Assembly (NCBI RefSeq): GCF_014138625.1
Contig: NZ_JACJHY010000038.1
Coordinates: 1 to 50,835, forward strand
Source of the DNA: Aminobacter ciceronei
GTDB taxonomy: Bacteria > Pseudomonadota > Alphaproteobacteria > Rhizobiales > Rhizobiaceae
DNA length: 50,835 nt
Direction: 5' to 3'
The notes beneath the pieces were generated by a model, which was given only the letters and a program-made list of their open reading frames with translations, was not told the DNA's origin and did no database searches. The stretch's first letter is position 1, and each line of letters begins with the position of its first letter. The translations under genes were made by a program, and so were the position numbers. Below, piece by piece: positions 4,455 through 17,059 of the stretch.

Positions 4455-4745
4455 CTTGAACGCTCTCGAATAAGTGAATCAGGGTCAGCCTACTGAGAGG
4501 ACTGTATTTTCGTCAACGAAGGAAGCTCCCGAAAACGCTTTTAGGCTGGGCGAGTTTGCATGTACGATCAATGTCAATAGAGACAACAAATCCGACTAAA
4601 GGGTAGAGAAGGTCTAGTCACCCTTAGGGAAGACTCGTTCCCGAGGCGGCGGTGTTTTGGCGGCTGCGCGAAGCAAAGCAGAAACGCCGGGATGCGAAGC
4701 AAAGCGAGGAACACTGCTGGGGCGTCCAGGAGTCTTGAGAAGAAC

Positions 4746-7700
4746 ATGACCGAAACGCAAACAGCGAACTGGCCTCATGCGCTGGCAGCAAAGCCTAGCC
4801 AGATCGAAATCTATTTCGGGGAACCTGTCACACAGCTTTCGGAGCGGCGCTTTCTCAGCCGTCTCGTCGCCGATCTGGAAAAAGCCGGTAGGTCGGCAAT
4901 CATTCTCGCCAACGTCGTTTTAAAGACCGGGGGCGTATCGCGGCAGATCGATTTCATCGTGGCGACCGAGCACGCTGCTGCTGTAGTCGAAGTGAAGGGT
5001 TTTGCAAGGGCGGTCCGGGGCGGCGAAAACGGAGCATGGGAGGAAAGGGGTGACGCTCCCGAGAACTGGACGCCATTGCGCGGCGAAAACCCGTATAGGC
5101 AGGCAGTCAATGCCCGATTTGCTGTGAGCGACGCGCTGAAGGAAGCAGGACTGGCGCCCGCAAACGGAAGCCAGCCGTATCTTGCGCTACATGGTGTACT
5201 CTGCGGCTACCCGCAACTGCCAGCCGGTTCGGCTGTTCCGTCGGGCGACCAGAAGGTAGCAATTGGCGGATACGACCTTGCCTTAACGAAGCTGAGTATG
5301 CCGACACCAGGGACGCCATATCCCCTTGATGCTTGGCGCGACCTGGCATCCAGACTTGGCCTCCAGTCTGAGGCCCATGTCATTGCTCCCGAGGAACACG
5401 CGGAGATCGCCGCATACATCAAGCGCCTCCGCGAACTCGTACGACGTGACCTTGGCCCCTATGTGCAGCTTCCGCTCCAGTCGACCGACGGCTCCATGAC
5501 GCTTTCCGACCTCGCGGGTTCGCTACGCGATGGCCGCAACCTGCTGGTCTCAGGTCCGTCAGGCAGCGGCAAATCCCACCTTCTTGCTCATCTTAGCCTG
5601 CTTCTGGATGAATCCGCATACGTGCCCATTCCACTTCGTGCCGCTGAGTTTCAAGGCAAGCTCGGTCTGCTGCTCGCCGAGACGACGGCGGCCTCGACGC
5701 TGTTGAGTCCGGTGCAGCTGCTGGGCACTTGCGCGAAGACCGGCAAGGTGCCGGTCTTGATTGTAGACGCTATCAATGAATGCCCGGCCGATCTTCGAGA
5801 CAAGCTGATCCGGTCGCTGCAGGCGTTACGACTGCGCCACCTTTGTCCAGTCATCCTCTCGAGCCAGCAACCTCTGCCACTTCCACCGATCCTTGCGGGT
5901 AGCGAGGTACAAATGCCGCCTCTGACCGCGGAGCTGAAAGACGCGCTTGTCACCGCGCACTCTGCCCAGCTTGTGGTTCAGCTCGCGTTTCCCGCTGCGG
6001 ACATTGTCTCGACGGCTCATGATGCGATGGTCCTGGCCAACGTGCTCGGCGATGATGAGGCAACTTCGAGCCGCTTCGCGCTCTACCAGTCATACTCCAG
6101 GGCAAAGCTCGGCTCTGACCGGGACAGTGCGGTTGCCTTTCGGGCGCTGCGCCAGCTCGCCGTCTTGATGCGCGAGAGATTTACGTACAGCGTATCAACC
6201 GCAGAGTTCCGGCGCGTGTTGGCCACCGCGTGCGGGGATCTTGCTCACGAGGGAAACGTGCATGAGATAGCCGTGCGCTCCGGCTTGCTCGAAATCAAAG
6301 GTATGCGCGTTTCTTTCAGGCATGAAATGCTACAGCTGTTCTTTGCCGCCGAACATCTGCTTCTTCATGCGGTGAACTCGGCCTCTATCGGAAAATTGCT
6401 GGCCGACCCTATCAACGAGGAGCTTGCCGAATATGTGCTGGGCTCACTTTCGGCGGCGCGCGAGATTGATGCTGCGCTTGCGTCAGTAAAGTCCCTTGAG
6501 CTTCTGGCGGACGCGCTGATGGGACGCTGCGGAAGCCCGGTTCGCCGCACCATCATCGACCGAACGAAGGCAGCACTTATCGTGTTGGGCCGACGATACG
6601 GGGAAATGGATGCCCGTTATGACGAGCAGAAGGAGGAGCGTGGCAGATATTCGCCGGTGACGATACATGCCGGTGGCGCCGCCACGCTTTCCCAAGAGGA
6701 TCGATCCTATCTTCGATTTGCCGTCTTCGCAGCACAGGACAGCGAGCTGTTCGAGGCCATGCTTTCAATGCTCGCCGTGGTGGATGCCGCGATCGGGCGC
6801 ACGGTTGCCGAATTGAGAAGAAAGCATCCTGACAAAAGGATTGGCTGGCGAAGCGCAATCTTCGCATCGGTCTACGTGACGCCCTACAATTCGGAGCTGG
6901 GCGAACTCTCGAACCTTCTTCAGAACTGCCGGATGGCGCAGATTAAAGCCGATCACGATCTTTCTTACAAACACGTCGCCGCGGCGCTGACGGGTGTTGC
7001 GAAGCTAAGCTACGGGCAACTCTATTTCCTGATTGAAAATTGCCACCCTTGGAGGCAGCAGGGTGAACCGCCTTACGATGCCGTGGCAATCACCATCCAT
7101 GCCTGGAGAAGCGGCATCTATCATATCAGGCTTGCCACAGAAATGTTCGTTCACACCCACGCGGATCATATGAGCGACGAGGCACGCACCGCATTAGCCC
7201 AGGAAGCAGAGACGTGGCTGACAGACCGCGATGTTATCCTTAACAGCATGGTCATCGAGATCATGAAAGCACTGGACGCCTTGGGGGACGGGCTCACGAT
7301 CGACGATGTTCGCCGCGAACGAGATCTCATCGTTTTCGGCGAACCGCATGAGTATACGAACGATCTCGCGTACGCCTTCTACGGCTGCATTTATGACCAT
7401 CCGTTCGATGGTCTATACGCGGAAGCGTTCAACGAAATGAACCCAGCCGACAGGGACAAGCTCCTGCTGTTCGCTCTTCACACGTCGAACAGCGAATCAA
7501 TGTTCTTCTCATTCCTGATCGCGGAGATAGCGCAGCACCCATTCATCGAGGCAGCCCCCCGGCTCCAGGAGCTCGCCAGGCTGCCGCGTGTACCGACGCA
7601 TTCCGTACAGGATTCTGTCGGTTGTTTCACAGTTGCCGTAAAGGCACTGGCGGCGCTCCGCGCGTCAGGGAGTTCGACTTCAGAAGCGAAGAGTGCCGTG

Positions 7701-8186
7701 GAACAGGCCTGGCACCTCGCCGCATCCATTCTGCGCGCGTTCTATGAACCCGACATATCGAAGGAAGAGTACATTCAGCGAACATTAGGCGACTGGCAAA
7801 ATTTGAGCAGGCTCCATCCGGCTTCGCTCGATGTCGTCATTCGGATCAGCAGGGACCGCTGGAACAGCCAAGACGCCGATGAAGCCAAGCTTCTGGAATG
7901 GTCGGCTGGTTCTATCCTGAGTATTTGCAGGCTGGTGCTGGACAGCGACGATGATCCAGTTTCCCTGTTTCCGGACGGTCCTTTCGGTGTGGGGACTCGG
8001 CCTGAGCAGATTGGTTTTTGCCTGCGGGTTGTCGGAGCATATGGCGATCGTTCGGACCTGCCGAGGATTGTGCCGCTTCTAAATGACCCGGCCCACGGAA
8101 GCGCCGCGCTAAACGCGGCGCGCAGGATTGAGTCGCCAGTTCCCGATGTGGTGGCATCAACCGAACGGCGTGCGGTTCATAAATAA
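4746..8186 (+). CDS. NERD-nuclease / NACHT-like STAND ATPase (candidate antiphage protein)
   Basis: 1146 aa from the ATG at 4746 (GAGAAGA just upstream); a start at 4692 would add 18 unconserved residues. The N-terminal NERD nuclease domain is about residues 20-180, with a D69 / E82-V-K84 catalytic pattern in QIDFIVA...VVEVKGF. The NTPase has Walker A GPSGSGKSH (270-278) and Walker B VLIVDAINEC (337-346, D341 and E345), then a winged-helix/NACHT-like segment ending RHEMLQLFFAAEHLL. The remaining 600 residues are helical and probably a repeat-type sensor. Known STAND immune proteins (for example Avs) couple a nuclease effector to an NTPase and a sensor in this order; the antiviral role here is inferred. 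The next gene starts 19 bp downstream and is very likely co-transcribed. Confidence 0.85.
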   Translation: MTETQTANWPHALAAKPSQIEIYFGEPVTQLSERRFLSRLVADLEKAGRSAIILANVVLKTGGVSRQIDFIVATEHAAAVVEVKGFARAVRGGENGAWEERGDAPENWTPLRGENPYRQAVNARFAVSDALKEAGLAPANGSQPYLALHGVLCGYPQLPAGSAVPSGDQKVAIGGYDLALTKLSMPTPGTPYPLDAWRDLASRLGLQSEAHVIAPEEHAEIAAYIKRLRELVRRDLGPYVQLPLQSTDGSMTLSDLAGSLRDGRNLLVSGPSGSGKSHLLAHLSLLLDESAYVPIPLRAAEFQGKLGLLLAETTAASTLLSPVQLLGTCAKTGKVPVLIVDAINECPADLRDKLIRSLQALRLRHLCPVILSSQQPLPLPPILAGSEVQMPPLTAELKDALVTAHSAQLVVQLAFPAADIVSTAHDAMVLANVLGDDEATSSRFALYQSYSRAKLGSDRDSAVAFRALRQLAVLMRERFTYSVSTAEFRRVLATACGDLAHEGNVHEIAVRSGLLEIKGMRVSFRHEMLQLFFAAEHLLLHAVNSASIGKLLADPINEELAEYVLGSLSAAREIDAALASVKSLELLADALMGRCGSPVRRTIIDRTKAALIVLGRRYGEMDARYDEQKEERGRYSPVTIHAGGAATLSQEDRSYLRFAVFAAQDSELFEAMLSMLAVVDAAIGRTVAELRRKHPDKRIGWRSAIFASVYVTPYNSELGELSNLLQNCRMAQIKADHDLSYKHVAAALTGVAKLSYGQLYFLIENCHPWRQQGEPPYDAVAITIHAWRSGIYHIRLATEMFVHTHADHMSDEARTALAQEAETWLTDRDVILNSMVIEIMKALDALGDGLTIDDVRRERDLIVFGEPHEYTNDLAYAFYGCIYDHPFDGLYAEAFNEMNPADRDKLLLFALHTSNSESMFFSFLIAEIAQHPFIEAAPRLQELARLPRVPTHSVQDSVGCFTVAVKALAALRASGSSTSEAKSAVEQAWHLAASILRAFYEPDISKEEYIQRTLGDWQNLSRLHPASLDVVIRISRDRWNSQDADEAKLLEWSAGSILSICRLVLDSDDDPVSLFPDGPFGVGTRPEQIGFCLRVVGAYGDRSDLPRIVPLLNDPAHGSAALNAARRIESPVPDVVASTERRAVHK

Positions 8187-8205
8187 TGACTGCGGAGCAT
8201 AAGAA

Positions 8206-9066
8206 GTGAATTTCAACGGACAGTGGCGATTTGACTCACCGGGTAAGATTCCGGACGGAGTGAACCGCGAGTTCAATACACTCGTTGGCAAGATCGCGAG
8301 CCAGGGCAACAGCCGGCAGGCCATCCTCGAGCACTTCAAGCGCTATTTTGCGGGTGTAATCGGTGCAACCTCGTCAACCAGTTCCAGCGAGAGCTGGGCA
8401 GAGTCTGACCTTGATAGATACATGTCCCACGCCGCTGACAATGCGCCGCTCTTTATCGAAGCTTTTTTCGATGGCTGCGAAGGTCTGGCGCATTCCGGAT
8501 TCGTCGTGCCCGATGTTGGACGGATGAACCGCATTCTCGCCGAGAACAACGCGGGATATGAAATCCGACCGCCGGACCTTGTGGTAATCGGTCTTCACCA
8601 GCCGATTCCGGTTCCCGAGCGATATGTGTCATTGGATGAAAGGGCGCAGGAGACAATCCGCGAGTCGTTCAAGAACTCCGAACAGCTTCTCGCAGAAGGC
8701 AGGCCGAGGCAGGCTGTGCAAGAAATCCTTTGGCTGATGGAGTCGGTGGCGACCGCGTTTCGAGGCTTAAGCGCCGGAGACACGACAATCGAAGGGAAAT
8801 ATTTCAACAAGATCGCTGACGCACTGAGAAAGCACCACAAGGGTACGACCTTCGAGCAGGTCTTGAATTGGCTCACTACGCTGCATGGATACCTCTCCTC
8901 ACCCACAGGCGGTGGCATTCGCCACGGCCGGGATCTGAAGGAAGGCATTGAGATTGGACCGTCTGAGGGACGGCTCTATTGCAACTTGATCCGGACGTAC
9001 GTGACCTTCCTGATCGCCGAGCATGAGCGATTGTCCACAGCCGAGACCACTCGCTTTTTGGCATAG
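8206..9066 (+). CDS. Abi-C-like protein, partner of the NERD-NACHT gene
   Basis: 286 aa from a GTG at 8206 with AAGAAG directly upstream; 19 bp separate it from the NERD-NACHT stop. The protein is mostly helical. The C-terminus has a short Gly-rich loop followed by RHGRDLKEG and then a long hydrophobic helix (CNLIRTYVTFLIAEHERL). This resembles the C-terminal domain of abortive-infection proteins (Abi_C, HEPN-like), but I cannot confirm the match. Its tight spacing suggests a two-gene unit with the ATPase, possibly as effector or regulator. Confidence 0.7.
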   Translation: MNFNGQWRFDSPGKIPDGVNREFNTLVGKIASQGNSRQAILEHFKRYFAGVIGATSSTSSSESWAESDLDRYMSHAADNAPLFIEAFFDGCEGLAHSGFVVPDVGRMNRILAENNAGYEIRPPDLVVIGLHQPIPVPERYVSLDERAQETIRESFKNSEQLLAEGRPRQAVQEILWLMESVATAFRGLSAGDTTIEGKYFNKIADALRKHHKGTTFEQVLNWLTTLHGYLSSPTGGGIRHGRDLKEGIEIGPSEGRLYCNLIRTYVTFLIAEHERLSTAETTRFLA

Positions 9067-9101: not shown

Positions 9102-9458
9102 TCAGTCCTGCAACTTTACCCATGACTTATCCCAGACGGTCACAGATTTCCTCGACCGGGATCGTTCAAGCGGCGTGAAGCGGCGCTGATACTTCTGACC
9201 TTCGTACTCCACGATCTCCTTGCTGCGCGCGTTTGGAAATATCCGGTCGAGCATGTTTTCGAGCGTCTCGTGCTCGCTTTTCGGAATAGCGCCGTCCGCC
9301 TTGAGTGCGAATTCAATCTCGCGAACCCTTGCACGTGCGGACTTTATGTCAGCCTGATATTTGTCCGGATTGTTGCCGCTGTAATCGTCAAAGCGCTTAT
9401 TCCAAGCCGCTAGTCCGGCTTTCGCCTGCTCCAAGTCCGCCAGCGTATAATTCGTCAT
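9102..9458 (-). CDS. small helical protein coupled to the CoiA-like nuclease
   Basis: 118 aa (MTNYTLADLEQAKAGLAAWNK...). It contains alternating charged residues over about 10-60 that suggest a helical hairpin, and a basic C-terminus (LERSRSRKSVTVWDK). The ATG overlaps the stop of the upstream nuclease gene (TAAATGA junction at 9455-9458), a translational-coupling arrangement. No family recognised. The pairing with a nuclease suggests an accessory or immunity subunit, which is inference only. Confidence 0.65.
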   Translation of the reverse strand: MTNYTLADLEQAKAGLAAWNKRFDDYSGNNPDKYQADIKSARARVREIEFALKADGAIPKSEHETLENMLDRIFPNARSKEIVEYEGQKYQRRFTPLERSRSRKSVTVWDKSWVKLQD

Positions 9459-10948
9459 TTAATGGTCTCTCCTTCTGAGGACGCCGCTGCGTTAATGGAG
9501 TTCGCCTTCGCTATCAGGCTTTGCAACTTTTCACCCACCTCCGGGATCAACAACACGAGAAGGGGGAGGCTTGCGGCATCGGGCATGAATTTCGGCTCAC
9601 GCTTTTCCAAGGAACGCCGGATCGCGACTTTGCGTGCCTTCCATTTTCCAGTGCGATCTTGAGCATCCAGAAGATTCTCCATGCCGAAATGCCGGATCGC
9701 GTGGCCGAAGGCCACCACGTGATGTGGGTAGGCCTCAGCGATACGATGCCCCACTTCGATCAGGTGCTTGAAACTCCACCCTACCGGATGGCCTTCCTTC
9801 GCGCTCGCTAACCCGTTCATGAGAGCGACCAGACTGCTGTCGTCGTCGGGCGACGGCGGCAGCGCAAGGCCATGATGCGCCGCGCTTGCACGACGCAGAG
9901 CGGACCATGCGAGTATGGAGTCGCGATCGGGACGGCTGTTTGGCGCTCGCTCTAGCCAGAAGGAGAACAATCCCTCGCGTAGAGCCTGGCTAGCAGCTTC
10001 CTCGCATTGGAGGCGGTCTCTTTCGATCTCTGCGCGAACCGCTTCGGCCTGTCCGTCATAGTCGAAGTGCCAGCAGCGCTGGGATGCGGTTTCGTAAGTC
10101 AGTTCGTCAAACGGGATTAGTGACGACTCCCAGCTGTCAACAAGCTGATTTCCGTTCCGGGCAGGCCGCCGAAAATGGCAGCGCACATGAAACTTGCCCG
10201 AGTTTTCAGACAAGGCTGTCGTTTCTTCGTCGATCACAAGAAAATTCGAATTGTTCGAAAAGAAGAGATCGTCAGTCGTCAGTCGCCGATAGTCCGGATC
10301 AAAGCCGCCCATGATCCACACAAGGAGAGCGTCCTCCTGCCGGTAGAAATTTCGGCGAGCGGCGACAACATCGAGAAAGGTGGTTGAGAGCTGTACCTCG
10401 AAAGCTACTCGGCCCAGGGGGCCAATCGCCTGCACGTCCGGCTGACGGCGGCTGCGGGGATCGTGAGATGATCGCCACTGGCGTTCGCTCAGAACGCCCG
10501 AGAACGCCGGGTCTGTCAGCAGGCTGCGAACAATCAGCGCTTTGATGCGCCGATGCGGCGCGCTTTCTCGCACGCCATCATACTTGCGCGCGAGAATTTC
10601 TTCGCGAGTGAGAGGGCTGCGGGTCTCACCCGGGCACGATCCGTCTTCCATGGCATGCCGGAAGAAGAAACGCTTGAACTGGTTTGAGACGAGATAGACG
10701 GGAACGGAACATAGAGAGCATCGGAAGCGGGGCTGCTCCAGCTGCCTCTCCTTGATCTCCAGACGTTCGCGGATCAGTTGTTCGTAGCGCCAGCCGCCGA
10801 TCCAGCTTTTTGCGTCAACAAATTCGCCGCTATCGCAGTCGAGCAATTCGATGATCGCCGGGTCGTCCACCGCCAATGCTGCAGACAAAGGATCGACCGT
10901 GACATTCCCGCGCGTGAACCAACTACCTTGATTCATACCCCTGTCCAT
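9455..10948 (-). CDS. CoiA-like / DUF6035-type nuclease
   Basis: 497 aa. A zinc-ribbon-like N-terminal part has C77-x2-C80 (FRCSLCSVPVYL), H98 and C105. A CoiA-type restriction-endonuclease-fold core follows, with H132/K136 (PHRRIKALIV), D171 (RRQPDVQA) and E184-V-Q186 (VAFEVQLST), matching the D...ExQ active-site variant of this superfamily. The rest is a helical C-terminal region. CoiA-like proteins act on DNA in competence; DUF6035-type relatives are of unknown function and frequent in accessory regions. The start is uncertain: ATG 10948, or ATG 10936, which has AGGGG close upstream. It is divergent from the mobile-mystery operon, with that operon's operators only about 100-155 bp upstream of its start. 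Confidence 0.75.
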   Translation of the reverse strand: MDRGMNQGSWFTRGNVTVDPLSAALAVDDPAIIELLDCDSGEFVDAKSWIGGWRYEQLIRERLEIKERQLEQPRFRCSLCSVPVYLVSNQFKRFFFRHAMEDGSCPGETRSPLTREEILARKYDGVRESAPHRRIKALIVRSLLTDPAFSGVLSERQWRSSHDPRSRRQPDVQAIGPLGRVAFEVQLSTTFLDVVAARRNFYRQEDALLVWIMGGFDPDYRRLTTDDLFFSNNSNFLVIDEETTALSENSGKFHVRCHFRRPARNGNQLVDSWESSLIPFDELTYETASQRCWHFDYDGQAEAVRAEIERDRLQCEEAASQALREGLFSFWLERAPNSRPDRDSILAWSALRRASAAHHGLALPPSPDDDSSLVALMNGLASAKEGHPVGWSFKHLIEVGHRIAEAYPHHVVAFGHAIRHFGMENLLDAQDRTGKWKARKVAIRRSLEKREPKFMPDAASLPLLVLLIPEVGEKLQSLIAKANSINAAASSEGETIK

Positions 10949-11136: not shown

Positions 11137-11595
11137 ATGAGTGTCAAGCAGGCAGTCCGAGAACAGTACCAAGCAATTGTCGATACGTCTCAGGGCAGCA
11201 ATATCGAGACACCGACCGAAGGCTGGATTCGAACCGTGCGCAAGGCGCTCGGCATGTCCGGCGCGCAGCTTGCAAAACGGATGGGCGTCACGCGAGCACG
11301 CATCGCTCAGGCGGAGAAAGCCGAGCTCGAAGGCGGCGTAACCCTGAAATCCATGCAGGCTGCCGCAGAAGCAATGGGCTGCCGGTTCGCCTACGCCTTC
11401 GTTCCACCCGACACCATCGAGAATGTAATTATCGGCCAGGCACGGAAAAAGGCCCGGGCGATTGTCAACACTGCGGGCAAGCATATGGCGCTTGAGGATC
11501 AAGCCGTATCCGACAGCCGGACCCAACACGAAGTTTCCAGGCTGATGCACGAGCTGATCTACGAAATGCCTCCTGACTTCTGGGAGGACAAGTGA
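11137..11595 (+). CDS. mobile mystery protein A (XRE-type antitoxin/regulator)
   Basis: 152 aa. The helix-turn-helix is about residues 36-60 (MSGAQLAKRMGVTRARIAQAE), followed by a conserved segment (KSMQAAAEAMGCRFAYAFVP) typical of the mobile mystery protein A family, which is found paired with a Fic-domain protein B. It probably neutralises or represses its partner and binds the two palindromes upstream. The stop codon overlaps the GTG start of the Fic gene (GTGA), so translation is coupled. Confidence 0.85.
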   Translation: MSVKQAVREQYQAIVDTSQGSNIETPTEGWIRTVRKALGMSGAQLAKRMGVTRARIAQAEKAELEGGVTLKSMQAAAEAMGCRFAYAFVPPDTIENVIIGQARKKARAIVNTAGKHMALEDQAVSDSRTQHEVSRLMHELIYEMPPDFWEDK

Positions 11596-12203
11596 CCATT
11601 AAACTCGAATATCCCGAAGGCGCGACACCTCTTGACCCGAATGAACTTGACGGGCTGAAGCACAAGCACATCACCACGCAGGGCGAACTGGACGAGCTTG
11701 AGCAGGCCAACATCGCTTCCGGGCTGCGCTGGCTTTCCCGCACGCGACGCAAGGACGTCCTTACGGATGACTTTGCGATCGAGCTTCATCGTCAGCTCTT
11801 CGGCGAAGTGTGGGGTTGGGCTGGAGCGTTTCGTAAGACCGGGAAGAATATCGGCGTCGACCCAATTCAGATCGGCATTCAGCTACGTGGCCTGATGGAT
11901 GACGCGCGCTATTGGGCGGAGCACAAGACGTATCCCCCTAAAGAGGCCGCAGTCAGGTTTCATCACCGCCTTGTCTTCATTCATCCGTTTTCTAACGGAA
12001 ACGGGCGTCATGCGCGCATTATGGCGGACACCGTGCTGGACAAGATATACGGGACAGAACCCATAGATTGGACTGCCGGCTCTGATCTGCAAAAGATAGA
12101 CGAAAGGCGTGCCGCGTATATCGCGGCCCTGAAGGCTGCTGACGGTCACGACATGGGGCCGCTTCTGGCCTTTACCAATCTAGCTGCTGACCAAGCACGG
12201 TGA
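11592..12203 (+). CDS. mobile mystery protein B, Fic-domain protein
   Basis: 203 aa from a GTG in the GTGA overlap with the previous gene. The Fic motif is HPFSNGNGRHAR (H131-R142). The usual acidic residue of HxFx(D/E)GNGRxxR is Asn135 here, so metal and nucleotide handling may differ from AMP-transferases; I recall Asn in this position in other mobile mystery B proteins. Fic enzymes transfer nucleotide or phosphate groups to target proteins, often as toxins. No inhibitory (S/T)xxxE(G/N) helix was recognised. The stop overlaps the next gene by a second GTGA junction, making a three-gene coupled operon. Confidence 0.88.
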   Translation: MTIKLEYPEGATPLDPNELDGLKHKHITTQGELDELEQANIASGLRWLSRTRRKDVLTDDFAIELHRQLFGEVWGWAGAFRKTGKNIGVDPIQIGIQLRGLMDDARYWAEHKTYPPKEAAVRFHHRLVFIHPFSNGNGRHARIMADTVLDKIYGTEPIDWTAGSDLQKIDERRAAYIAALKAADGHDMGPLLAFTNLAADQAR

Positions 12204-13402
12204 CTATGACGGCAAGTGTTATGCGAACAGATTTGCCCCCTGAGCTAGAAGCGGTTCGAAACGTGGCCAGGCGCGCGCTCGGCCCGGTGACGCCTACTAC
12301 CGACAATACCAAAGCGGACAAAGACTTCTTGTTCAAGGCAAAGAGAACGGAAGCGGGACGAAAGTTGCCCGCACAGCACCTAGTCTATTTCGTTTTGGCC
12401 GATCTTCTCGGGTTCAAAAATCTTGGGAAATTTGAGAAAGTCGCTTGGTCTATCCCCGTTGATTTTAACGGACGCGCCTTCCTGATTGAACACAGGAAAT
12501 TTGGCGTCGGCGTCTTTGCGCACGATCCAGCGACCGAGGAAGCTGACGCCGAGAAAATTGTTAATCACATCCATAAGGCCGTGAAGGTGGCCCGACCGTT
12601 CTTCGACTGGCTCGCCGGAAAAGCGGTTGAAGATTCTTCGGTCAACGTCAACAACAACAGCACCGCCTTGTTCGATCGCTTCGAGTACTTTGTTGAAGCA
12701 CACCGCAACAAGGCGAAGGAGGCTGATGACCGCAAGGGCGAGCGCGTCGTCAAAAAAGGTGGGACAGAAGGGCACAGTTGGGAGAGCATCACCTATCCTG
12801 CAATGCGCTTGCGCACCGAAGCCCGGTGGCTTGGCCTTGCTGCAATTGAAGCATTCTTCAGTTGGACCGAGCACGTCCTCATCCATATCGGCATTCTGTC
12901 CGGCGGCATGCGAACCGCGGGTGATGTTGCCAAACTTGCGGAAGCGGATTGGGCGACCAAATACAAGAGCGCACTCGATCTCGCAGACCCTGCATCAAAG
13001 GATTTCTATGACAGGCTGCTTGTTGTCCGTAAGGAACTTCGCAATTTCCTGGCGCACGGCTCATTCGGGAAGCAGGGCGAGGCTTTCAGTTTCCATTCCT
13101 CCGCGGGGGCCGTACCCGTCTTGCTCCCCGATCCTATCGGCAGCCGCAAGTTCTCGTTTGGCCAGCACCTCTCATTCGATGTCGCGGGTCCGATCCGGAC
13201 CATCGAAGAATTCATTGGGCATTTGTGGAGCGGCCCACGAGCCCCCGCCGAAATTTACATTCAACGGTATCAGTTGCCTCTGATCCTCACGATGGTTGCG
13301 GATGGCAGCTATGCACAAGCAATGGCGTCACCGGAAGAAATGGAACAGTTTGCGCACTATCTCGCAGGCCGATTTGACCAAGCAACTGACATGGACTGGT
13401 AG
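12200..13402 (+). CDS. HEPN-like protein, third gene of the Fic operon
   Basis: 400 aa from GTG 12200 (GTGA overlap) or ATG 12206. The central part contains two long helices (ARWLGLAAIEAFFSWTEHV and YDRLLVVRKELRNFLAH). The second ends in R281-NFLA-H286, the Rx4H pattern of HEPN ribonucleases. The N-terminal 130 residues contain a basic, mixed alpha/beta segment. No family is recognised for the full length. Coupling to Fic and antitoxin genes suggests a third component of the same toxin-antitoxin or defence unit. Confidence 0.7.
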   Translation: MTMTASVMRTDLPPELEAVRNVARRALGPVTPTTDNTKADKDFLFKAKRTEAGRKLPAQHLVYFVLADLLGFKNLGKFEKVAWSIPVDFNGRAFLIEHRKFGVGVFAHDPATEEADAEKIVNHIHKAVKVARPFFDWLAGKAVEDSSVNVNNNSTALFDRFEYFVEAHRNKAKEADDRKGERVVKKGGTEGHSWESITYPAMRLRTEARWLGLAAIEAFFSWTEHVLIHIGILSGGMRTAGDVAKLAEADWATKYKSALDLADPASKDFYDRLLVVRKELRNFLAHGSFGKQGEAFSFHSSAGAVPVLLPDPIGSRKFSFGQHLSFDVAGPIRTIEEFIGHLWSGPRAPAEIYIQRYQLPLILTMVADGSYAQAMASPEEMEQFAHYLAGRFDQATDMDW

Positions 13403-13694: not shown

Positions 13695-14401
13695 AATACC
13701 GCCGATTGCCCTCCGCAATACACTATAGCCGCCGAACGTACGCCCTTGCATCTGGTAGAGGCCGGCCCGCGCGCAGAAGAGCGTAGAAACGGCGGCGTTC
13801 AGGGGCGGAAAAGTTTGAATCGCTTTCGGTCGACTGATTGCCACAAGAATACGTTGCGGCCTGGTATGGCGGGAATGCGCCTCCATCTGGCCGTGGAAGC
13901 AGTCGCTGCCTCCTCCCACAAGCGGACGCCTAGAAGTGGCACTGCCGATGTTTGGCCCGGGCGGAGAGGTACGGCTCGAAGGATGCCTCGTTGTTGTTGG
14001 CAACGGATCGTTGGTCTTGAGCCGAGTTCCTGATACCTGCAACGAAAGCTTCTCGATTCTCTGTCCAGGCATCGAGGATCCCGTTTGGCGGTTGATCCGC
14101 ATCGTTAGATTTGGCTTTGTCGAGGCGGGAAGCTTCAAAGAGCGCACGGCCGGCGTCGCTGAGGCCCTGGCTCACCTAGCATACACGGATCGCCATTCAA
14201 GAGGACCGTCAACCCCTGCCTGGGACCTTGCGCATGGTTCGCGTCCGAGCCCGAAGGCTGGTGCAATTACTGGTCGGGAAGAAGACGCTCCCACAACGCG
14301 GGGCAATCTTCTGCGGGCAGGGCAGCCACGCCCAACATACTGGCGTTGTGAAAATAACGATCCATATCGCGCGGCGCTTGTGGGTGTGATACTTGTGCGA
14401 A
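13695..14401. other. about 700 bp without a convincing gene
   Basis: Several overlapping short frames on both strands lack ribosome-binding sites, motifs or consistent coding character. A minus-strand frame at 13930-14175 (including LDAWTENREAFVAGI) could be a gene remnant. It probably contains the promoter of the PHP-ATPase gene near its right end. Confidence 0.45.
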
Positions 14402-17059
14402 ATGCTCCCCGATCAACAAAAGGCAAATAGCTTCGAAACATTCTTCCCTAACGGTTCCGCCTGGGTCCGGGTAGACTTCCATCTGCATACCAGGGCCGAC
14501 AAAGAGTTCGCCTATACAGGGCAAGACAACGATTTCGTCAGCGCATACATCGCTGCCCTTAAAGCCGCCGGAATCCGCCTCGGCGTGGTCACCAACCACA
14601 ACAAGTTCGACCTCCAGGAATTCAGAGCTCTCAGAAGAGCTGCGAGGCAAGAAGGCATCGGCCTGCTCCCGGGTGTCGAACTCTCTGTCAACGACGGGGC
14701 AAATGGTGTCCATGCCCTCATTATGTTTTCCGACGAATGGCTCGAAAACGGCCATGACTTCATCAACGCGTTTCTCGGAAACACCTTCAGCGGCCGCACG
14801 CCAACGCAGTACGAAAACGAGAATGCCCGCTCGAACGAAGACATCGTTTCAACTCTAAAGACCCTTGAGCAGTTCAACCGCGATTTCCTCGTTGTCTTCG
14901 CTCATGTTGAGGCGTCTAGCGGGCTCTGGAACGAAGTAAAAGGCGGGCGCATGCAGGAGCTGGCCGCCAATCCGCTCGTGCAGAAATACTGCCTCGGCTT
15001 TCAGAAGGTCCGCACGCACGATGTGCCGGATCGCGTCGGCCGGACGAAGGTCAAACAATGGTGGCCGCAGTACCCGGCGGAAGTCGAAGGTAGCGACCCG
15101 AAGAGTATCGAGCAGATTGGCAAAGGCGAGCATACCTTTCTTAAGCTCGGTGACCTCACCTACGAGGCCGTGAAGTTCGCTCTGCGCGATTTCGAGTTCC
15201 GCGCAGCGGGCGCTGCACTCAAACTGACACACGGCTATATCGAGGCCGTACGCTTTGAAGGCGGGCTGCTGGATGGTGTCCGCATTCCGCTCTCGCCGCA
15301 CCTCAACTGTCTGATTGGCATCCAAGGCAGTGGTAAGTCATCCGCGCTCGAATGCCTTCGATGGGCGCTCGACATTCCATTCGGCGATAGACCTCAAGAT
15401 CGAAAGTACAAAGAAGACCTCGTCCCGTTCGTACTGAAGAGTGGCGGTCGCGTTACCGTCGAGGCGGTTGACCACCTCGGATCAAAATATGAGGTTCGCA
15501 GGATCTTGGGACACGATCCGGAAGTCTACTTGAACGGCGTCCTACGCAGAGGCGTCGCCGTCAGACAAAGTGTGATCCGAAACCCGCTCTACTTCGGGCA
15601 GAAAGACCTCTCGGCCGCAGGCCAAGATTTTGGAAAGGACCTGGTCGAGAAGCTAGTCGGTGAATCTCTGCGGTCTATCCGTGAGTCGATTGCGACTGAG
15701 GCTGGTGAGCTTAAGTCAGCGGTTACGCTACTGCAGGCGATCCAAACCGACACCGAAAAGCTTACCGGTTTTCGCCAAGAGCTTGCTGCCCTCGAATATC
15801 AGATCGAACAGTTTGACAAGCATGGTGTGAAGGACAAGCTGGAAAAGCAGCTTGCCTATAATCAAGACGCCTCGTTCGTGACCTCGGTCGATGAGAAGGC
15901 GGAAAGTTGGAGTGAAGCCGTCGGTGATTTAGCCGACGAAGGCATCGAGCTGCTCGATGCTCTCGCTGTCCCGGGCTCAAAATACAACGCCGCTTTCTTC
16001 GCCGACTACGCGCTAGCTCTTGCCGAACTGAAAGCGTCTGTAGCCTCGATCAAGGCTGTTCAAACAGCCATCGACATCGTCCGCGACAAGCTTGGCGAAA
16101 AGCACGCCGCTCTGAACGGCACGATCGGTGGTCTCAAGGAAGAATTTGCCTCTGTTGAGCGCGAGCTCCTCGAAACCCTCGCCGACAAAGGTGTTACCGC
16201 GCTTCAGCCCGACGACTATCTCAAGAGCACTGACCGAAAAAGGGGGATCGAAGGGAAGATCGCTGAGCTCGTGACTGCAACCTCTAAGGCTGCGGATCGT
16301 AGAGAACTCGTCGCCAACACGAGCAGTGCGCTCAACGAAAAGTGGCTCGAAGAGTATCGGGTGACAGCCGCCGCCCTCGACAAGATCAATAATGTCCAAT
16401 CTGAGCTAAAGATCACCTCGACGTTCAAGGGCGACAAGAAAGCCTTCACGATGCGGCTAGAGGCCGCCCTCAAGGGTAGCAGCGTACGAAGTGAGAGCAT
16501 CGAAGCCATCTGTGGAAAGTACGTGGATTTCGCGGCTATCTACGCCAACCTCGACGAGGCAGCAGCCTTGGCGAAAGGACGTGCAGATGCCTTTCGTGAA
16601 TACTTCTTGAGAGCGCTACCCACGCTCCTGACCTTCCAGGTGCCCAACACCTACGAAATCAACTATCACGGACGCCCTCTACGTTCGCATTCCCTCGGTC
16701 AGCGTGCCTCCGCGATGATGCTCTTTTTGCTGAGCCAGCAGGAACACGACCTCGTTCTGATCGACCAGCCTGAAGACGACCTCGACAGCCAAACGGTTTA
16801 CGAAGAAGTTGTGAAGCGCATCCGCAAGATCAAATCCAACAGGCAGTTCATCTTCGCGACCCACAACGCAAATTTCCCGGTACTGGGAGACTCAGAGTCC
16901 GTCTCCGCGTTCAGCGCATCCGATGACAGGATTGCCGTTTCCTCTGCCAGCATCGACGCCGCCGACACCCAGAAGCTAATCATCAGGATCATGGAAGGCG
17001 GCCCCGAGGCGTTTGCCCGCCGCAAAACAATCTACGAACATTGGAAAGCAGGGCGATAG
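14402..17059 (+). CDS. PHP-phosphoesterase + SMC-like ATPase (TrlF/Ppl-type defence protein)
   Basis: About 885 aa from ATG 14402 (TTG at 14393 is an alternative). The N-terminal PHP phosphoesterase domain has metal ligands in DFHLHTRAD (H27, H29), TNHNKFD (H66), GVELS (E93), VHALI (H104) and FAHVE (H168). The ATPase has Walker A GIQGSGKSS (306-314), a long coiled-coil middle (about 430-690), an LGQRAS signature-like segment, Walker B LVLIDQPEDDLD and a FATHNANF switch. This SMC/RecN-type plan with an N-terminal PHP domain is that of TrlF-family proteins and the Ppl antiphage gene. It likely hydrolyses a nucleic acid or nucleotide under ATPase control. A GNAT gene begins 3 bp after its stop. 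Confidence 0.85.
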   Translation: MLPDQQKANSFETFFPNGSAWVRVDFHLHTRADKEFAYTGQDNDFVSAYIAALKAAGIRLGVVTNHNKFDLQEFRALRRAARQEGIGLLPGVELSVNDGANGVHALIMFSDEWLENGHDFINAFLGNTFSGRTPTQYENENARSNEDIVSTLKTLEQFNRDFLVVFAHVEASSGLWNEVKGGRMQELAANPLVQKYCLGFQKVRTHDVPDRVGRTKVKQWWPQYPAEVEGSDPKSIEQIGKGEHTFLKLGDLTYEAVKFALRDFEFRAAGAALKLTHGYIEAVRFEGGLLDGVRIPLSPHLNCLIGIQGSGKSSALECLRWALDIPFGDRPQDRKYKEDLVPFVLKSGGRVTVEAVDHLGSKYEVRRILGHDPEVYLNGVLRRGVAVRQSVIRNPLYFGQKDLSAAGQDFGKDLVEKLVGESLRSIRESIATEAGELKSAVTLLQAIQTDTEKLTGFRQELAALEYQIEQFDKHGVKDKLEKQLAYNQDASFVTSVDEKAESWSEAVGDLADEGIELLDALAVPGSKYNAAFFADYALALAELKASVASIKAVQTAIDIVRDKLGEKHAALNGTIGGLKEEFASVERELLETLADKGVTALQPDDYLKSTDRKRGIEGKIAELVTATSKAADRRELVANTSSALNEKWLEEYRVTAAALDKINNVQSELKITSTFKGDKKAFTMRLEAALKGSSVRSESIEAICGKYVDFAAIYANLDEAAALAKGRADAFREYFLRALPTLLTFQVPNTYEINYHGRPLRSHSLGQRASAMMLFLLSQQEHDLVLIDQPEDDLDSQTVYEEVVKRIRKIKSNRQFIFATHNANFPVLGDSESVSAFSASDDRIAVSSASIDAADTQKLIIRIMEGGPEAFARRKTIYEHWKAGR

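Follow-up and report, generated by a model that had tools for sequence, protein, structure and literature searches.

The element described here is a pair of adjacent genes in a 50,835-nucleotide stretch of Aminobacter ciceronei DNA (contig NZ_JACJHY010000038.1 of assembly GCF_014138625.1), referred to below as the window. Gene 1 (4746..8186, + strand) encodes a protein of 1146 amino acids in which a NERD nuclease domain is fused to a NACHT ATPase of the STAND type. Gene 2 (8206..9066, + strand), with a GTG start, encodes a protein of 286 amino acids, which we call a HEPN-like rider protein, with an AbiJ_NTD4-like N-terminus and a HEPN-like C-terminus. Calling of open reading frames (ORFs) and translation agree that these are two real genes on the same strand with a spacing of 19 bp, as a first-pass annotation of the DNA had described. 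The ORF lister also offers a start for gene 1 at 4692, but 4746 is more likely, as it agrees with the aligned starts of relatives of gene 1. By eye, a GGAG resembling a ribosome-binding site is visible at 8194..8197 (+), 8 nt before the GTG of gene 2. No promoter-like or terminator-like site was found between the genes in a scan of 4.75 kb that returned a single example of each, not above shuffled sequence, and the two genes may be co-transcribed.

The NERD domain occupies residues 33–132 of gene 1 (4842..5141, +) and passes the Pfam cut-off for PF08378 (40.6 bits against 22.1, E 3.9e-10). Residues E33, D69, E82 and K84 are invariant across six aligned proteins including that of the window, so that both the domain and the residues D69, E82 and K84 named for it in the first-pass annotation held up. 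The same is true of the P-loop ATPase (5529..5960, +), where Walker A, GPSGSGKS (residues 270–277), and Walker B, ending in VDAINE (345), are intact; the P-loop from G270 to K276 together with D341, N344 and E345 is invariant in eight aligned proteins, again including that of the window. In Pfam, NACHT PF05729 (E 9.5e-5, 22.7 bits) and AAA_16 (30.2 bits) fall below their cut-offs of 26.7 and 32.6 bits, respectively. The remaining C-terminal region of about 550 residues (6543..8183, +) is presumed to be a sensor, and no Pfam domain was found in it up to E 0.1. Of the sensor-like C-terminus proposed earlier, structure prediction recovers all-helical secondary structure, in a model of low confidence (predicted local distance difference test, pLDDT, of 47).

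NERD-NACHT proteins are rare. They were found in at least three of 385 genomes of the class and at least two of 398 of the phylum, the genome of the window being counted in both and the counts being lower bounds as two candidates were scored per genome shown, and in eight of 72,556 plasmid records, seven of them with a match over 80% or more of the query. The window's own genome contains one NERD match above the cut-off, gene 1 itself, and a scan of genome contigs with P0001 alone gave no match. There was no match to gene 1 in 50,697 phage records and no NERD-NACHT locus in IMG/VR. Seven relatives share 24–28% identity with gene 1 over aligned positions, and a Phaeobacter relative (L012) is without the NERD part and has an IS3 transposase gene directly upstream. 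When compared with the sequences of solved structures, gene 1 matched 298 chains, of which the 60 listed, NLRC4 among them, all match around the P-loop. From its sequence, gene 1 appears to be a rare NLR-like architecture.

Avs (AVAST) proteins are STAND ATPases with an N-terminal nuclease and a C-terminal sensor. No Avs model matches gene 1 over its full length (NF041813, 8.9 bits against 1000), and only a P-loop-local Avs2 match of 14.8 bits was obtained, over residues 260–345 (86 residues). There is a partial match to MAD6 in NCBIfam. NERD is described as an attached nuclease domain in DndF variants, PglW, MAD6 and Mokosh type I in the available portions of PMC10952713, PMC10853773 and PMC12839542, but the fusion partners there are other than those in gene 1. 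More similar in layout is bNACHT25/32, experimentally shown to be a DNA-degrading antiphage protein, which according to the accessible part of PMC12169576 has an N-terminal PD-(D/E)xK-type nuclease, a central NACHT and a C-terminal sensor; gene 1 differs in that its effector is NERD, its NACHT is below the Pfam cut-off and no Pfam domain was found at its C-terminus. Among the matches listed in the mainly open literature, no description was found of the NERD-NACHT fusion or of the gene 2 family in the accessible portions of these four papers and of PMC3710099.

The first-pass annotation had suggested that genes 1 and 2 constitute a two-gene defence system. Nine NERD-NACHT relatives match gene 1 over no less than 80% of its length (seven plasmid and two genomic, including L012), and in none of the nine is gene 2 in tandem. 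In three loci of one Rhizobiaceae lineage (L006, L015 and L016), whose NERD-NACHT proteins are 90–95% identical, gene 2 lies at a distance of about 2 kb, as the last gene of a divergent operon that also has cyclase- and NucC-type genes; on the S. chiapasense plasmid it is about 16 kb away, beyond the fetched stretch; and in Xanthomonas the gene for an AbiJ_NTD4 protein, of the superfamily of gene 2, is found 12 bp upstream. At five of the nine loci, S. chiapasense included, the fetched stretch contains no gene 2 and no AbiJ_NTD4 gene, and gene 2 was not found anywhere in G597 or G599. Viewed from gene 2, with stretches of up to 10 kb a side that are shorter at contig ends, a NERD-NACHT gene is nearby at 5 of 61 genomic loci (L027, L042, L047, L051 and L070), always on the opposite strand. 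What remains of the proposal is the NERD-STAND architecture, a partner that is right in kind (HEPN/Abi-type) and the position of the pair outside catalogued systems, neither protein being matched over its full length by any model of PADLOC or NCBIfam. Conservation of the pair does not: rare co-occurrence, which had been named as the outcome that would speak against it, is largely what the neighbourhood survey found. A fixed two-gene system was rejected on these counts, and a NERD-NACHT plus gene 2 system is not supported.

The annotation had also labelled gene 2 as Abi_C. PF14355 gives 12.9 bits (E 0.12) against a cut-off of 24 and matches one of nine members scanned, and a profile–profile comparison with three Abi_C proteins reaches only 0.3%, a negative that is weak because Abi_C was represented by these three sequences; the label was dropped. 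AbiJ_NTD4 PF18863 is also below its cut-off for gene 2 (12.9 bits against 34), with three of nine members matching (best E 0.089). For profile–profile comparison, an alignment termed A3 was used, with 44 rows hand-picked from 72 loci as near-full-length unbroken frames, leaving out fragments, broken copies and some near-duplicates. Against 14 AbiJ_NTD4-type proteins it gives a probability of 97.3% (E 2.6e-11, 198 columns), whereas seven comparisons with Abi_C, AbiEi, AbiEii, DUF6602, TIGR02391 and two further neighbour clusters are all below 1%. In the set of 14, L103 is the same protein as L005, itself a match in the gene 2 search (E 4.5e-5), and L104 and L106 score below the Pfam cut-off. 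A subset of five AbiJ_NTD4 proteins, four with a GRH/GIRH motif, gives 93.8% with the gene 2 profile. On this sequence comparison gene 2 appears to be a divergent member of the AbiJ_NTD4-HEPN superfamily, sharing the two-part build of AbiJ proteins but below the Pfam cut-off and with LSSPxGGGxRHG in place of RNxxGxHG.

The signature of the family lies at residues 228–241, GYLSSPTGGGIRHG (8887..8928, +), where S231, P233, G235, G236, R239, H240 and G241 are found in all 44 rows of A3. The family motif reads GYLS[SA]PxGG[GR][VI]RHG, with Y or F at position 229, and R168, E173, E179, Y199 and F200 are likewise kept throughout. Classical HEPN RNases carry an Rx4-6H motif, and so do AbiJ proteins; in some HEPN families the motif is incomplete, and other conserved residues may take its role (PMC3710099, in the portions accessible, where AbiJ solos are also said to occur in restriction–modification operons). 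This motif is absent from the gene 2 family, all 44 rows having S231 followed by S or A at 232, with R239 and H240 adjacent. A model of gene 2 built from 39 rows (pLDDT 81.4, predicted template modelling score 0.47) is mainly helical in both halves, the C-terminal domain included, and of low confidence at motif residues 234–241. Foldseek returned nothing for this model at E ≤ 0.001. Among the 50 of 134 matches listed, a designed binder leads (E 0.33 and 0.63) and the HEPN structures 2q00, 1wol, 3o10, 2hsb and 9bj5 appear at E 0.90–4.7 amid unrelated helical proteins. Of these structures, 2q00 is classed as HEPN in the part of PMC3710099 available. These matches lend weak support at most to a predicted HEPN fold. 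A search of solved-structure sequences with gene 2 gave one designed protein (E 0.69), and with PADLOC three of 44 relatives match PDC-S32 (best 3.4e-5) and one ZorC, all weakly.

Relatives of gene 2 were found in 47 of the 72,556 plasmid records, at 61 genomic loci and at three loci in IMG/VR; of 297 genomes of the order four have one, including one weak match and the window's own. The phage records contained no match to gene 2, and a phage origin of the two genes was rejected on these searches. The nearest upstream gene was scanned at 27 loci with Pfam, at some also with PADLOC, and at 13 of these it is, in our reading, clearly of a defence type. The upstream genes are AbiEii (L007 and L031), LmuB (L019, PADLOC 5.1e-197), NucC (L042; a CBASS cyclase and NucC match at 3.9e-95 and 1.9e-102 in the loci tested), AriAB of PARIS (L028, 9.2e-145), PDC-M68B (L037, 1.9e-225), HEPN_Toprim_N (L034, Pfam), EcoRII-C (L041, Pfam), an Eco57I-type methylase (L044, Pfam), a trypsin-like PDC-S45 (L045), PD-Lambda-3_B (L057), a Gp49-HTH gene of toxin–antitoxin type (L076) and, the weakest of the 13, a PDC-S70-like gene (L021) whose operon also has QatC (1.1e-30). 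An S8 peptidase (L040), a GIY-YIG protein (L043) and a DUF2971 protein (L046) are doubtful. Gene 2 relatives thus stand beside many unrelated anti-virus systems, which argues for an interchangeable add-on and not a fixed partner.

By ORF call, the distance from the upstream gene to gene 2 ranges from an overlap to about 340 bp. It is 9 bp behind the NucC cluster in six of six loci and 12–23 bp behind the AbiEii cluster in four of eight. A same-strand gene is present within 150 nt upstream of gene 2 at 32 of 55 loci, the rate among 800 other genes being 43.4% (p 0.036). Same-strand genes are not enriched downstream (21 of 55 against 44.6%, p 0.40), and four of nine downstream genes scanned are of a defence type (Mrr, KAP, AAA_15/21 and HSDR_N). 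In the Acetobacteraceae loci L010, L036, L040, L054 and L067 the gene 2 relative is followed by a TIGR02391-type gene, which overlaps it by 32–38 nt in four loci and is 1 nt apart in L036, and which in L040 matches PD-Lambda-3_B. At six loci (L006, L015, L016, L042, L051 and L070) a compact CBASS-type cyclase–NucC operon, with a gene 2 relative as its last gene, is transcribed divergently from a NERD-NACHT gene; this double-defence cassette recurs in Rhizobiaceae. The cyclase and NucC assignments were tested for L070 and L042 and made by cluster for the others. On an Agrobacterium Ti plasmid (L008, 8001–8852) a gene 2 relative lies between AbiEi–AbiEii and an annotated type I restriction endonuclease.

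Exchange of the upstream neighbour can be followed on a 39-row tree of gene 2, in which linkage to AbiE requires two changes or more. Eleven rows make up the smallest well-supported clade that includes the gene 2 of the window, and they mix AbiE, Lamassu-type (ABC-3C) and unlabelled contexts. Copies of gene 2 at L035, L038, L044 and L072, which come from different families, share DNA of 92–98% identity that sets in about 45 nt ahead of the start codon and runs 2.6–7 kb onward. Upstream of about −45 nt, no alignable DNA was found in five of the six pairs, L038 and L072 continuing to about −475. In Acetobacteraceae the copies become alignable at points between −36 and −66. Because the shared DNA starts just 5′ of gene 2, it points to a recent replacement of the upstream neighbour.

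Further genes of the window lie around the pair. Convergent with gene 2 is a gene for a DUF6035/DUF7830 CoiA-like protein (9455–10948, −), a homologue of which (E 2.8e-21) is found 27 bp upstream of the Bosea NERD-NACHT gene (L014). At 11137–13402 (+) an ORF that by eye is helix-turn-helix-like precedes, with a 4-nt overlap, the gene for a Fic protein (PF02661, E 1.5e-13), and a 400-residue ORF without Pfam match overlaps the Fic gene by 4 nt. An AAA ATPase protein encoded at 14393–17059 (+) matches Ppl (E 4.2e-27) and other defence ATPases in PADLOC. At 19–1749 a gene for a serine recombinase (Resolvase, Recombinase and Zn_ribbon_recom) runs with its 3′ end into a tRNA-Met, a possible island end. 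The tRNA end was considered as an attachment (att) site and rejected, no second copy of it having been found in the window.

The reading we favour, at roughly even odds, is that gene 1 is a sensor–nuclease immune protein and gene 2 an interchangeable HEPN-like accessory. The helical C-terminus of gene 1 would detect a product of infection, the NACHT ATPase would switch and probably oligomerise, and the NERD domain, of the PD-(D/E)xK type, would cut DNA and so stop the infection or kill the cell. Gene 2 would have joined many defence operons that are unrelated to one another, often as their 3′-terminal gene, and here would probably act as an RNA-directed effector of a second line, expressed together with the NERD-NACHT protein. 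There is a precedent in kind, with different proteins, in the nuclease–protease pairs, an accessory repeatedly acquired by unrelated Hachiman, Avs, Lamassu and DRT systems (PMC12799240, as far as the available portion goes). Several results weigh against this reading. At 11 of the 27 scanned loci (L011, L025, L033, L056, L061, L062, L063, L066, L068, L073 and L077) the upstream gene is non-defence or has no match, and most kinds of partner are met at one locus only. The upstream enrichment is mild, coming from rough ORF calls and non-independent loci. Of the four copies that show the sharp breakpoint, three are without a close same-strand gene upstream. Partner labels, set by us on 12 rows with 27 of the 39 in no group, are clustered on the tree (five groups, four changes, which is the minimum, against a shuffled mean of 6.5), and partner exchange is therefore not free. 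Seven AbiJ_NTD4 proteins of the RNxxGxHG type reach only 33.2% with the gene 2 profile, and since Rx4-6H is absent the RNase activity of gene 2 is uncertain.

The mildness of that enrichment would also suit a stand-alone abortive-infection gene that lands in defence islands, with its neighbours, NERD-NACHT included, being incidental. This is possible, if doubtful. It is consistent with the 15 of 64 loci where none of the four nearest upstream ORFs is on the same strand, at least 120 amino acids long and within 500 bp, some of these being ORF-calling misses such as L039, where another count found a same-strand gene, and with the block shared within one clade extending 2.6–7 kb downstream and, in five of six pairs, not upstream. 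The constant short gaps behind NucC and at half of the AbiEii loci speak against it and argue for co-expression. An obligate pair, in which gene 2 is required for NERD-NACHT function, would explain the 19-bp same-strand spacing without an intervening promoter- or terminator-like site, the same-superfamily protein 12 bp upstream in Xanthomonas and the three loci of one Rhizobiaceae lineage with gene 2 about 2 kb away, but it is very improbable given the absence of any tandem in the nine other loci, the five that lack gene 2 and AbiJ_NTD4 alike in the stretch fetched and the two, G597 and G599, without gene 2 altogether. Scarcely less improbable is that gene 2 is a brake, an antitoxin-like HEPN fold with its RNase activity lost that restrains costly nuclease systems. 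Serine at the position of the Rx4-6H arginine in all 44 rows and the nucleases or toxins among its neighbours would suit this, but the replacing motif is invariant, and for that reason an active or ligand-binding site fits better than decay.

The accessory family of gene 2 is a more interesting result than the pair. More speculatively, and we hold this as an unlikely extension of the accessory reading, gene 2 may represent a HEPN-like subfamily that is new, has had its active site rebuilt (LSSPxGGGxRHG) and serves as a plug-in second effector for at least ten kinds of defence gene unrelated to each other (AbiE, CBASS-NucC, Lamassu, PARIS, the QatC operon, restriction–modification, PD-Lambda-3_B, NERD-NACHT and others, several at one locus), firing once the primary system has been either triggered or overcome. 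With the NERD-NACHT protein, which can be tested directly, the NLR-like proteins of bacteria would gain a further type of nuclease. Should gene 2 be a back-up effector that these systems share, many immune systems that are studied separately would be connected through a single small protein, and comparing it across them would show whether a common signal, such as failure of the first line, fires it.

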